DNA from: Paenibacillaceae bacterium
GTDB lineage: Bacteria > Bacillota > Bacilli > Paenibacillales > NBRC-103111
Assembly: GCA_029256185.1 (NCBI GenBank)
Contig: JAQSYI010000042.1
Location: 1-64,000, forward strand
Length of the DNA: 64,000 nt
Direction of reading: 5' to 3'
Part shown: in pieces, positions 2,324 to 5,004 of the stretch
Numbering within the stretch: the first letter of the stretch is position 1
Layout of the letters: every line of letters begins with the position of its first letter
Notes under the pieces: model-generated
Databases searched by the model: none
What the model saw: only the letters and a program-made list of their open reading frames with translations
What the model was told of the DNA's origin: nothing
Position numbers and translations under genes: made by a program

Positions 2324-3028
2324 TCATTTAGCCAAAATCAAACGGAGCTGAACGGTTACATCATTTTGAGTATTCAACAGCACCGTGTGCGGGTTCTTCA
2401 TGCCGAAATCATCAAAGGTCACCACGGTGCTGCCTTCCAGATTTAGCTTGCCCTCGATAAATTGCGCCTTGCTGTCAAATGCAACATCCTTGGATAGTCC
2501 CCTCAGACTCAGAGTGCCGTTAATACGGATGGGGACGGCCTCTCCTTCCTTCCACTCCTCAGGGAGCTGCTCGAAGGAGGTTGTTGTGAAGGTGGCATTA
2601 GGATATTGTGCTACTTGCAAATAGTCGTTGCCCTTAATATGATTGTCCCGCTGGGAGTTTCCTGAGCTTAGGTTGGCCAGTTCAACACTTCCCTCCCCTT
2701 TGTTCTGCGCAGGATCGGAGCTGTTCAATTGCCAGGAGCCTGTTACGGGCTTAACAGAGAAGTTTACCGTCTCCCTGGAGGTTGTGACAGAGAAATACAC
2801 CTCGGAAGCCGCTTGAATCGTCCACAGCCCATCTACACTTGCAGCCTCCACTGCAGCCGCTGGGGTTGCCGAGGCCCCTGGACTTGCGGCGCCCGGACTG
2901 GAGGTAGCAATTACGCTCTTGACCTCCACGCTATTGCCGGCGTAATAATCATAAGCGGCATAAGCAACACCTGCGCCCACCAACACTACGACAGTTGAAA
3001 CAATAATGGCAACTCTCCACTTTTTCAT
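2324..3028 (-). CDS. membrane-anchored YceI-domain protein
   Basis: A 234-residue protein with a short cytoplasmic N-terminus, one membrane segment (about 7-28), an Ala/Ser/Pro/Gly-rich linker (about 42-63) and a YceI beta-barrel domain (about 66-233). The domain is recognisable from the WTI/VYFSV start, the NHIKGNDYL-V--YP-ATF centre and the repeated G-L-L-RG-SK segment. YceI proteins form a lipocalin-like pocket for isoprenoid-type amphiphiles; the ligand here is unknown. The domain should face outside the membrane. A 19-base operator-like dyad at 3068-3086 is identical in its arms to the one before the BlaI-type gene, so repression by that regulator is inferred. The ATG at 3028 follows a GGAGG-like site. 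Confidence 0.85.
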   Translation of the reverse strand: MKKWRVAIIVSTVVVLVGAGVAYAAYDYYAGNSVEVKSVIATSSPGAASPGASATPAAAVEAASVDGLWTIQAASEVYFSVTTSRETVNFSVKPVTGSWQLNSSDPAQNKGEGSVELANLSSGNSQRDNHIKGNDYLQVAQYPNATFTTTSFEQLPEEWKEGEAVPIRINGTLSLRGLSKDVAFDSKAQFIEGKLNLEGSTVVTFDDFGMKNPHTVLLNTQNDVTVQLRLILAK

Positions 3029-3067: not shown

Positions 3068-3086
3068 ACACTACACACCGTAGTGT
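3068..3086. promoter_or_regulatory. predicted BlaI-type operator before the YceI gene
   Basis: ACACTA-N7-TAGTGT, a perfect 6-base inverted repeat 40 bases upstream of the YceI start. The same arms and the same spacer length recur at 4417-4435 before the BlaI-like gene. BlaI/MecI/CopY repressors bind dyads containing ACA/TGT. Confidence 0.7.
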
Positions 3087-3137
3087 AAATCGATAAAAAG
3101 ATGAAACTGTTCAACCGGCCTATCTTCTGTCAAGCCA

Positions 3138-3986
3138 TTACAGATAAGCCGGCAAAAACAGTGCTGTTAACAACACAAGGACTTGAAAAGAGACGATAGC
3201 CGAGAACCAGGGAAGCTTGATCCTGGGCTTCTCCTGCGGATCGAGCAGCTGCCTGATCCGGATGTTGATTGGCGTATCGGCAAAGGAAGCATGAGCAAAG
3301 CTCATGGATAGCGGTGTGCTGCTCTTGGTCAGCTTTACAAGCGCACTCCCCAGTCCCACCGCTGAGCCGGTTGCCGAAATGGCATAGCGGTCAGCCAATA
3401 CCTCCCTGGTTGTCTTGAAGCAGTGGTGGCACCACCGCAGGATAGGCACATACCACATGATGCTGGACAGCGCGTATATGCACAGTGTGCGCAGAGGATC
3501 TCTGTTTATCAGATGAAACTGTTCGTGCCGGACCACCGCCTCCAGCTCTTCCTCCTCCAGCAAGTCCGTTAAACCGGTGGACATGATGATGACGGGACGG
3601 AAAAATCCCATAGTGAAGGCCATCGGCTTCTGGCAGCGGATCACCATCAGATTTCCCTCAGCCAAGGCATACCTTCGGACCATCTGCCGCGATTGCTCCG
3701 GGTCGAGGACGGCGCTGAACCGGGCTTTTACACGAAAGGAGGCAAGGATTTGGCTGATGGTGAACAAGAAGCCGGTAATAACCGTGCTAAGCACCAGGAC
3801 ATCAAGCCCCTTGGCCACCAGCGGCAGTCTTAATTTCATCAGCCAATTGTTGCACATGTCGAATAGATTAGCCAACATAGGCCAGTGAAACATCAGGAAC
3901 AAAGCGTAGAGCACCATCTGGCTGAAGATGATGGCTGCTGTCAGGATTGAGAAGACAATCAGGGATTGGGCTTGTCGATTCCGCAT
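3138..3986 (-). CDS. M56 (BlaR1/MecR1-like) membrane metallopeptidase
   Basis: A 282-residue integral membrane protein with four predicted membrane segments (about 8-33, 61-83, 166-183, 259-281). A zinc-protease signature H-E-Q-F-H is at 154-158, with a likely third ligand E195 in T-R-E-V-L-A-D. This matches the peptidase core of BlaR1/MecR1, which cleaves the partner BlaI/MecI repressor after a signal. The extracellular penicillin-binding sensor domain found in full-length BlaR1 (about 600 residues) is absent; only 22 residues follow the last helix region. The gene lies 3 bases after the BlaI-type gene in one operon. What activates it is therefore open; the linked YceI protein or another partner could serve as sensor. 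Confidence 0.8.
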   Translation of the reverse strand: MRNRQAQSLIVFSILTAAIIFSQMVLYALFLMFHWPMLANLFDMCNNWLMKLRLPLVAKGLDVLVLSTVITGFLFTISQILASFRVKARFSAVLDPEQSRQMVRRYALAEGNLMVIRCQKPMAFTMGFFRPVIIMSTGLTDLLEEEELEAVVRHEQFHLINRDPLRTLCIYALSSIMWYVPILRWCHHCFKTTREVLADRYAISATGSAVGLGSALVKLTKSSTPLSMSFAHASFADTPINIRIRQLLDPQEKPRIKLPWFSAIVSFQVLVLLTALFLPAYL

Positions 3987-3989
3987 GCG

Positions 3990-4403
3990 CTATCGTTCCT
4001 TTTTCAATGCTTGGATTTTTTGCTCCAGCAGGGTAATCAGCTCTGAATCTGCCTGGTCCAATGCATCAATCATATGATTGACTACCAGGGGGCCAAAATC
4101 CTCCATCAGCTCCTGGGTAATTTCCTTGGACTGAATGTCCAGGAAATCGTCCCGGGTATGGGTCGGACGGTACAAGGAGGTGCGTCCCTCCAGCCTTTTG
4201 ACGAGAATGCCCTTGTCCAACAGGCGGTTCATAACCGTCATGACCGTGTTGAAATTAATATCCCTCTCTTGCTCCAGCTTTCTCTGGACATCCTTGATGG
4301 ACAATTCGGCATGTGCCCAAAGAATACTCATGATCCGGGCTTCCAACGGACCGAAGAAACGGTTGAGCCCCTTCTCGAAATACTTGAAGTTCTGTATCTT
4401 CAC
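3990..4403 (-). CDS. BlaI/MecI/CopY-family transcriptional repressor
   Basis: A 137-residue protein with an N-terminal winged helix (about 5-80) containing the family pattern F-G-x-L-E-A-R-I-M and V-M-T-V-M-N-R-L, then a C-terminal dimerisation helix. Members are homodimeric repressors that are inactivated by proteolysis by the neighbouring M56 peptidase. The GTG at 4403 is used: GAGGTG lies 7 bases upstream, whereas the ORF extension to 4466 would run through the operator dyad at 4417-4435. It heads a two-gene operon with the M56 gene. Autoregulation and co-regulation of the YceI gene are inferred from the two matching dyads. Confidence 0.85.
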   Translation of the reverse strand: MKIQNFKYFEKGLNRFFGPLEARIMSILWAHAELSIKDVQRKLEQERDINFNTVMTVMNRLLDKGILVKRLEGRTSLYRPTHTRDDFLDIQSKEITQELMEDFGPLVVNHMIDALDQADSELITLLEQKIQALKKER

Positions 4404-4416
4404 TGTGATACACCTC

Positions 4417-4435
4417 ACACTACGGATTATAGTGT
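4417..4435. promoter_or_regulatory. predicted BlaI-type operator before the blaI-like gene
   Basis: ACACTA-N7-TAGTGT, identical arms and spacing to the dyad at 3068-3086, located 14 bases upstream of the GTG start on the minus strand, where it would block the promoter or early transcription. Confidence 0.7.
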
Positions 4436-4476
4436 TAAGCGGCAGCCATGTCAAATTAACTGACAATTAAAATATT

Positions 4477-5004
4477 TCAATTCTTGTACAGAGAGATGTC
4501 GCGGGGAGTGGCCTTAAGCAGCCCGCTGCGGTTTCGCCGCATGGAGGAGCCTACATAAATAAGCTGGGGCAGCAGCAGGAAGTAGTGCGCTGCTGCCGAA
4601 TTGGCAAGCCAGGCAATCGGCATCCATACATAGAAGAGGGCAAGCAAGGCAAAACCGATCAGCAGCCGATGCCGGTTGATTCTATTCCACTGACTGACCG
4701 GAACATAGCCTAATGGAAGATAACCGTAGAAGGGATAAGCAAACATCCATCCCCATATATGCGGGACCTTGCCTTGGGACAAATGGCGCAGCAGGAGTAC
4801 GATAACCGTATGAACAACGGAGATAGCAGCTGCCGAGCAGACCAGAACAAAGGCCCCCTCCCAACCCAGATAAACCAGATCCGCAAAAAGCCAGAGGAGC
4901 AGGCATGCAGAGTAGAGCCAATAAAACAGATGTTTTCGAGTAAACCGGCGCAATAGGGTATAATGGTATATAGTAGAATCATCGGATATCTTATGCTGGG
5001 CCAT
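4477..5004 (-). CDS. hypothetical membrane protein, four helices
   Basis: A 175-residue protein not assigned to a named family. Hydropathy by eye suggests four membrane segments (about 27-45, 50-73, 113-133, 137-152). Both ends are charged, and a Trp/Tyr/Pro-rich segment W-G-W-M-F-A-Y-P-F-Y lies between helices 2 and 3. The ATG at 5004 has GGAGG at a good distance on the minus strand. It is upstream of, and in the same direction as, the BlaI/M56 pair, separated by 73 bases that contain the BlaI operator, so it is probably a separate unit. Function unknown. Confidence 0.6.
   Translation of the reverse strand: MAQHKISDDSTIYHYTLLRRFTRKHLFYWLYSACLLLWLFADLVYLGWEGAFVLVCSAAAISVVHTVIVLLLRHLSQGKVPHIWGWMFAYPFYGYLPLGYVPVSQWNRINRHRLLIGFALLALFYVWMPIAWLANSAAAHYFLLLPQLIYVGSSMRRNRSGLLKATPRDISLYKN

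Follow-up and report, generated by a model that had tools for sequence, protein, structure and literature searches.

In this Paenibacillaceae bacterium, a BlaI/MecI-family repressor and an M56 membrane metalloprotease probably control an adjacent YceI-family gene through a common DNA site. The locus, contained in a stretch of 64,000 nucleotides referred to here as the window (Table 1), is explained best, and with somewhat more confidence than doubt, by an autoregulated BlaI/M56 antirepressor switch that would receive an envelope redox or electrophile signal via a single cysteine of the protease, C45, and whose output in this species would be YceI. The components of this explanation differ in strength: the predicted operator and regulon are well supported by sequence comparison, dimer binding and proteolysis of BlaI would hold by homology with characterized relatives, and a sensing function for C45 is a conjecture that can be put to the test, while the nature of the signal, the role of C45 and the ligand of YceI are what we infer from these elements together.

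Table 1. Predicted features of the blaI-M56-YceI locus (positions in the window)
Feature	Position	Strand	Description	Evidence
YceI-family gene	2327..3028	-	234 aa, N-terminal membrane anchor, without cysteine	Pfam YceI, E 2.2e-26
Operator 1 ACACTACACACCGTAGTGT	3068..3086	.	39 bp before YceI	exact dyad match
M56 membrane metalloprotease gene	3141..3986	-	282 aa, BlaR1-type without sensor domain	Pfam Peptidase_M56, E 2.9e-14
BlaI/MecI-family repressor gene	3993..4403	-	137 aa, probable GTG start, without cysteine	Pfam Penicillinase_R, E 3.5e-27
Operator 2 ACACTACGGATTATAGTGT	4417..4435	.	13 bp before blaI, over -10 box	exact dyad match
blaI promoter TTGACA-17-TATAAT	4426..4454	-	-35 at 4449-4454; -10 at 4426-4431, inside operator 2	

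A shared dyad and the blaI promoter

The initial annotation described identical ACACTA-N7-TAGTGT dyads before blaI and YceI, and a scan of the window located both without mismatch (Table 1). When the search was extended to the genome (8,572,288 bases in 91 contigs, 94% complete), the same two exact copies, one before blaI and one before YceI, were the only ones found, and the reversed-pattern control returned none. The identity holds for the arms, which are exact and unique in the genome, but not for the 7-base spacers, CACACCG and CGGATTA, which are unlike. Similarly, the core CACTAC-N5-GTAGTG with up to one mismatch recovered only these two sites genome-wide, compared with 43 for the control. 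Chance occurrence of the dyads was ruled out by this uniqueness together with the tracking of the regulator across genomes.

Since the operator covers the -10 box, its expected action is to block RNA polymerase at blaI. Such a predicted dyad operator at the repressor's own promoter, together with a Penicillinase_R domain scoring 95.5 bits against a cut-off of 22.6, places the protein in the BlaI/MecI/CopY family; its score to the CopY/TcrY copper repressor model, 46.8 bits, falls below the NCBIfam equivalog cut-off of 121.95. The closest solved chain is 2g9w, which we take to be M. tuberculosis BlaI, Rv1846c. The genome contains eight BlaI-family matches including this one, five of which score at least 84 bits, and one of the others (contig 57, L345), located near an M56 gene, is accompanied by two ATTACA-N2-TGTAAT sites over a promoter-like stretch. 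The classical BlaI operator has the form TACA-N2-TGTA, and the two repressors of this genome therefore seem to differ in operator code.

The gene order YceI, M56, BlaI, 175-aa gene, gin, decarboxylase-like gene is kept in two genus mates, with tmk present in one of the two contigs. The 175-aa gene (4480-5004, minus strand), which lies before blaI, is 62-63% identical in both genus mates, has no Pfam or NCBIfam match and was not seen close to the pair in any of the remaining 78 family loci. Two near-identical GC-rich direct repeats occupy positions 3-60 and 195-252 of the window.

Conservation was assessed in a family set of 104 genomes. The M56 gene is present in 81 of these (threshold E 1e-30), and a single locus per genome was compared for the 80 M56-positive genomes besides this one, giving 81 loci with the window. 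BlaI directly precedes M56 on the same strand in 80/80 family loci. The best dyad match within 120 bp of blaI has 0, 1, 2 or 3 mismatches in 15, 32, 25 and 4 loci, respectively, with none in five (n = 81), such that a blaI operator within three mismatches occurs in 76/81 loci; poor conservation of the dyads, named at the outset as grounds for abandoning the shared-operator proposal, was not encountered. A core operator with no more than two mismatches lies within the 60 bp preceding blaI in 71 loci; the hexamer it contains reads TACAAT in 65 of them and TATAAT in 3, and a -35 element (at most one mismatch to TTGACA) lies 16-18 bp upstream of this hexamer in 68/71, versus 1/71 at a control spacing of 28-30.

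Co-inheritance of the operator, the pair and its cargo genes

Within the family, the exact operator is found in 63 of the 81 M56-positive genomes (129 sites) versus 6 of the 23 without M56 (6 sites; Fisher p 8.7e-6), where absence denotes no match at 1e-30 to the window protein and the negative group includes a genome, G005, with a divergent cysteine-less BlaI-M56 pair. Three of the six sites in M56-negative genomes precede a BlaI-like (L137), a DsbA-like (L213) and a BlaI-type gene (L214). In G005, the divergent pair, which bears its own two-mismatch dyads, and an operator-less YceI gene lie approximately 7 kb apart on one contig (L342).

Assignment of 128 exact sites in M56-positive genomes to a gene start within 260 bp, with families called by Pfam on examples, placed 38 before YceI, 32 before blaI, 21 before DoxX, 16 before DUF2231, and four each before DUF3105 and cytochrome c genes. 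Thus 115/128 precede blaI or one of five exported or membrane protein families, and 13 precede none of these. The rate in M56-negative genomes (3 or 6 sites in 23) suggests 11 to 21 chance sites per 81 genomes, and the 13 unassigned sites therefore need no further explanation. One of them, before a CcdA-like gene in G086 (L195, contig 17), belongs to a second copy of the pair ordered, by eye, BlaI, M56, operator, CcdA-like, TlpA-like, one gene, Lgt-like, and is a probable cousin system. In the same genome, a D-Ala-D-Ala carboxypeptidase-like gene (L196, by eye) is preceded at 20 bp by an exact operator, a single case that may be due to chance.

The genes following M56 in 80 loci, assigned to the family with the highest tblastn score in the 2 kb from the start of M56, encode DUF2231 (25), DoxX (22), YceI (11), DsbA-like (9), DUF3105 (3), cytochrome c (2) and thioredoxin-like TlpA (1) proteins, with none or another gene in 7, one of which is cut by a contig end (L063) and another of which has DUF2231 slightly further on (L117). 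Cargo may also form runs, as in L045 (DoxX, DsbA-like, DsbB-like, by eye) and L056 (DoxX, DUF3105). Co-occurrence of the three genes, a check proposed in the initial annotation, holds for BlaI and M56, paired in every family locus, but not for YceI: with YceI after M56 in only 11/80 loci, a universal YceI output was rejected, as was a fixed three-gene unit, given that in 16 family loci YceI stands apart from blaI-M56 with an operator of its own. For the species studied here, sequence predicts a regulon of blaI-M56 and YceI only; a search allowing two mismatches gave no operator at either of its DoxX loci.

The YceI protein scores 93.4 bits against a family cut-off of 23.7, is 62% identical in the two genus mates, and has YceI or polyisoprenoid-binding proteins as its closest, distantly similar, solved chains. 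Among the 36 strong YceI genes of the family (E below 1e-50, four weaker matches dropped), the exact operator precedes 28/32 in M56-positive genomes versus 0/4 in M56-negative ones (G005, G012, G023, G079), and an operator of at most one mismatch 31/32 versus 1/4 (p 0.002); two computations of the association with M56 presence gave p 0.0012 and 0.0022. In the M56-negative exception, G079 (L227), the YceI gene with its one-mismatch operator is immediately preceded by a remnant of blaI interrupted by stops, and here the switch seems to have decayed. G010 is the sole M56-positive genome whose YceI has no operator within four mismatches. Unlinked YceI genes with two exact operators 66-108 bp apart were also observed (L183-L192). 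A YDY[YF]xGN stretch after the anchor, present in 33/36 YceI proteins by eye (32 by a stricter script pattern, which missed L223), was considered as a mark of operator-bearing YceI and rejected: L223 and L224 have the stretch without an operator, and of the three proteins lacking it two have no operator and L227 has the one-mismatch operator.

These data bear upon the suggestion, made in the initial annotation, that the system perhaps senses membrane or lipid stress and that YceI is its output. In this view, membrane-lipid damage or crowding, through build-up of isoprenoid carriers or lipid peroxides, would be sensed directly by the transmembrane helices, with YceI as the lipid-binding output. 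The polyisoprenoid-binding names of the closest solved chains, the operator before YceI in 28 loci and the guarding of Burkholderia from lipid peroxidation by a YceI-family protein with cytochrome b561 (PMC9113575) all fit such a model; most relatives, however, carry DsbA/DsbB, DoxX, DUF2231 or cytochrome c after the pair, and C45 is left unexplained, making it unlikely overall. We know of no evidence that DsbA/DsbB, DoxX, DUF2231 or cytochrome c proteins are lipid binders. What endures of the suggestion is the shared, conserved operator, YceI being too narrow as a defining output. Across relatives the site stands before DoxX, DUF2231, DUF3105, cytochrome c and DsbA-like genes at roughly the frequency seen for YceI. 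This points to extracytoplasmic redox handling, and the protection of lipids by YceI may be one part of it.

Relatives beyond the family were sought in one genome per species across 84,980 species, yielding 98, of which the best 80 were analysed; 36 of these 80 are not titled Paenibacillus or Paenibacillaceae, and comprise Bacillaceae, Brevibacillus and allies as well as one titled Arthrobacter. In these 36 outside loci among the best 80 of 98, BlaI precedes M56 in 36/36, the blaI operator has 0, 1 or 2 mismatches in 9, 22 and 5, respectively, and the pair is followed by a DsbA-like gene in 33/36, the rest having DUF3105, DoxX or no cargo family. Of 14 outside loci viewed in detail, 13 carry, approximately 20-300 bp after M56, a second operator with no more than one mismatch, and 11 have a DsbA-like gene, adjoined in 9/11 by a DsbB-like gene (by eye); Pfam identified DsbA-like and DsbB proteins in L241 and a thioredoxin-like fold in L247. 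The blaI-M56-dsbA-dsbB locus on the Arthrobacter-titled contig (L254) is of Bacillaceae type, indicating a mislabelled genome or transfer.

A class-wide sample had an M56 gene at 1e-40 in 42/398 genomes, and 28 loci were examined, a set that overlaps the search alignment (L315 repeats L249, and others may repeat too). In the 20 closest (E up to 2.6e-84), the loop cysteine is present in 20/20, an operator with no more than one mismatch before blaI in 18/20, and DoxX or DsbA-DsbB after M56 in 17 (by eye), the exceptions being neighbored by an ABC-ATPase-like gene (L326), an NlpC/P60 gene (L327) and none of the families (L341). Only three of the eight distant loci have the cysteine: L331 and L334, with DsbD/CcdA-type and TlpA-like neighbors, and L333, with a BNR-type protein and non-thiol neighbors. 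The five cysteine-less ones adjoin NlpC/P60 (L335, by eye), NlpC/P60 and M23 (L336), metal-ATPase (L337), Lgt-like (L342, by eye) and lipoprotein (L332) genes, and may represent forms of the switch that serve the cell wall or metals. Cysteine-less paralogues L006 and L007 adjoin Lgt-like genes (by eye).

The sensorless protease, its loop cysteine and the proposed switch

The protease belongs to family M56 (Peptidase_M56, 53.4 bits versus a cut-off of 31) and bears the catalytic motifs HEXXH, at 154-158, and ExxxD, with H154, E155, H158, E195 and D199 invariant in the alignments. As the initial annotation had proposed, it has no penicillin-binding sensor: at E 0.001 its Pfam matches are Peptidase_M56 and Peptidase_M48 only, Pfam and NCBIfam contain no match to a sensor, transpeptidase or PBP domain in its 282 residues, which end in a terminal helix, and its score to blaR1_generic is 30.4 bits against a cut-off of 400, outside the sensor-bearing BlaR1/MecR1 proteins. 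The three other M56 proteins scanned in this genome likewise contain no PBP domain, and a beta-lactam circuit was rejected on these grounds. The accompanying statement that no beta-lactamase is present is correct for the genes scanned beside the pair but not for the genome, which has five Beta-lactamase2-family matches elsewhere (best E 1.2e-36), not all of which need be beta-lactamases; the sequence examined upstream of the best of these contains no dyad whose 6-base arms match perfectly, a further ground for rejecting a beta-lactam circuit. The more general claim that the pair is not tied to beta-lactams agrees with the recurrent operator-linked families, among which there is neither a beta-lactamase nor a PBP.

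The latter absence also weighs against a cell-wall antibiotic response relayed by a distinct penicillin-binding protein, an arrangement that has been suggested for M. tuberculosis BlaR, and so does the classical TACA-N2-TGTA operator of another BlaI in the same genome. We regard such a response as very unlikely, notwithstanding the descent of the BlaI/M56 family, the one G086 operator before a carboxypeptidase-like gene (by eye) and the likewise sensorless M. tuberculosis BlaR1 homologue described in PMC9834060. Equally to be weighed is a model in which BlaI is a stable autoregulated repressor, M56 acts upon other substrates and induction bypasses BlaI cleavage. Cleavage is assigned here by homology, leaving room for this model, yet the strict pairing in 80/80 loci, the intact catalytic residues and the BlaR1-like fold make it most improbable.

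A candidate for the input is C45 (codon 3852-3854), located between the first two membrane helices. This residue is cysteine in 78/78 residues (3 gaps) across the 81 family loci, and in 80/80 rows of a second set (the window and 79 loci, 35 outside Paenibacillus, taken from the best 80 of 98 relatives). It is the sole invariant position besides Met1 in the first 122 residues (30 rows), and the corresponding loop of the three longer M56 proteins of the same genome is, by eye, free of cysteine. Sequence comparison of the protease with solved structures gave no match at 0.001; an AlphaFold model (mean pLDDT 85.6, 60 rows), in which C45 occupies a short helix at 41-51, had S. aureus BlaR1 as top match in a fold search (Foldseek E 6.1e-6), residues 1-239 superposing on BlaR1 21-288 with Z 13.8 and rmsd 4.4 over 209 residues. 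The aligned range and the presence of two helices before the protease thus place the C45 loop at BlaR1 EL1, to which, judging from these ranges, it would be equivalent. In BlaR1, displacement of EL1 (residues 56-96) moves helix 3 and the protease, such that EL1 transmits the signal (PMC9834060).

The relatives of the pair sit on exported proteins handling electrons and disulfides, and the switch may therefore sense envelope redox stress rather than penicillin. Against such a role for C45, a lone conserved cysteine can serve in structure, metal binding or lipidation. One alternative would make it part of a copper or soft-metal sensor, in which the C45 residues of two M56 subunits in a dimer bind metal outside the membrane, with a regulon serving to protect exported thiols, cytochromes and lipids. 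The weak CopY/TcrY score of BlaI (46.8 bits, below 121.95) and metal ATPases near the divergent relatives L119 (by eye) and L337 lean this way. Conversely, BlaI is without any cysteine and therefore has no CopY-type metal site, M56 offers one invariant cysteine and no invariant loop histidine, and no metal pump occurs among the main-clade operator-linked families; a metal sensor is accordingly quite unlikely.

Under the preferred explanation, a redox- or electrophile-responsive switch, a BlaI dimer would occupy CACTAC-N5-GTAGTG at its own promoter, over the -10 box, and before YceI, keeping both units off. A signal outside the membrane, most likely redox or electrophile stress of the envelope read by C45 in the EL1-like extracytoplasmic loop, would alter M56, whose cytoplasmic zinc site would cleave or inactivate BlaI, and both blaI-M56 and YceI would then be transcribed. 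YceI itself would act as an anchored, exported, lipocalin-like protein that binds an isoprenoid or quinone-type lipid and shields the membrane, and related switches would carry DsbA/DsbB, DoxX, cytochrome c, thioredoxin-like, DUF2231 or DUF3105 genes as cargo instead. Several points weigh against this explanation: we know of no firm redox role for YceI or DUF2231 in Gram-positive bacteria, the cysteine-bearing relatives L326, L327, L333 and L341 have the other neighborhoods described above, seven of the 80 family loci show no cargo family after M56 within the 2 kb considered, and the regulon predicted for this species is confined to blaI-M56 and YceI. YceI is viewed as a lipid or quinone protector because of the Burkholderia protein BcnA (PMC9113575) and the polyisoprenoid-binding chains, and DoxX as an envelope oxidant gene because of PMC7907618. 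More tentatively, and with less than even confidence, a penicillin-sensor system could have been rebuilt across Bacillales as an envelope redox sensor in which, the sensor domain being gone, the oxidation, disulfide or adduct state of C45 would set BlaI cleavage, and one operator code would serve interchangeable outputs: Dsb pairs, DoxX, cytochrome c and, here, YceI as a lipid antioxidant.

Relation to known systems

We know of no explanation for the stimulus of BlaI/M56 pairs without a sensor domain, and no description of this regulon was found in the titles and abstract openings of the open-access papers retrieved. No account of the operator, the outputs or the invariant loop cysteine emerged there either; a sensorless BlaR is already known in M. 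tuberculosis. If the proposal is true, the operator and regulon of one clade of sensorless BlaR proteins are defined and its candidate input is narrowed to a single residue, making what these proteins sense directly testable; Gram-positives would have a one-step protease route for envelope thiol or redox stress, and YceI, a widespread protein, would gain physiological context.

Similarities with the BlaI/BlaR1 and MecI/MecR1 systems of Staphylococcus and Bacillus licheniformis include a winged-helix repressor adjoining a membrane gluzincin protease, an operator over the repressor's own promoter and the BlaR1 fold. Unlike BlaR1 and MecR1, the M56 protein lacks the penicillin sensor domain and, judging from the aligned ranges, apparently has one N-terminal helix fewer; the operator is CACTAC-N5-GTAGTG and not TACA-N2-TGTA, and the outputs are exported redox or lipid proteins in place of beta-lactamase or PBP2a.

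A sensorless M56 partner is shared with M. tuberculosis BlaI (Rv1846c)/BlaR (PMC9834060), although the regulon there, which includes sigC and atpH, has no YceI, DoxX or Dsb genes in the accessible portion of PMC8265638. Clostridium thermocellum BlaI_0696 shares a very small, stringent regulon and inverted repeats five bases apart, and differs in its half-site, GTCTAT, and in an operon with two BlaR1 genes (PMC8457756). With respect to outputs, the accessible part of PMC9113575 describes in the Burkholderia BcnA/LcoA lipocalin-cytochrome b561 system a YceI-family exported protein in membrane redox protection; this system is Gram-negative, relies upon a cytochrome b561 partner of a kind not seen beside YceI here, and is presented in that part with no mention of BlaI or M56. 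Finally, the Haemophilus influenzae RpoE2 regulon resembles the present one in a DoxX-like operon regulated in the hypochlorite response, and is distinguished from it by sigma factor/anti-sigma control, with no repressor-M56 pair mentioned in the portion of the report available (PMC7907618).
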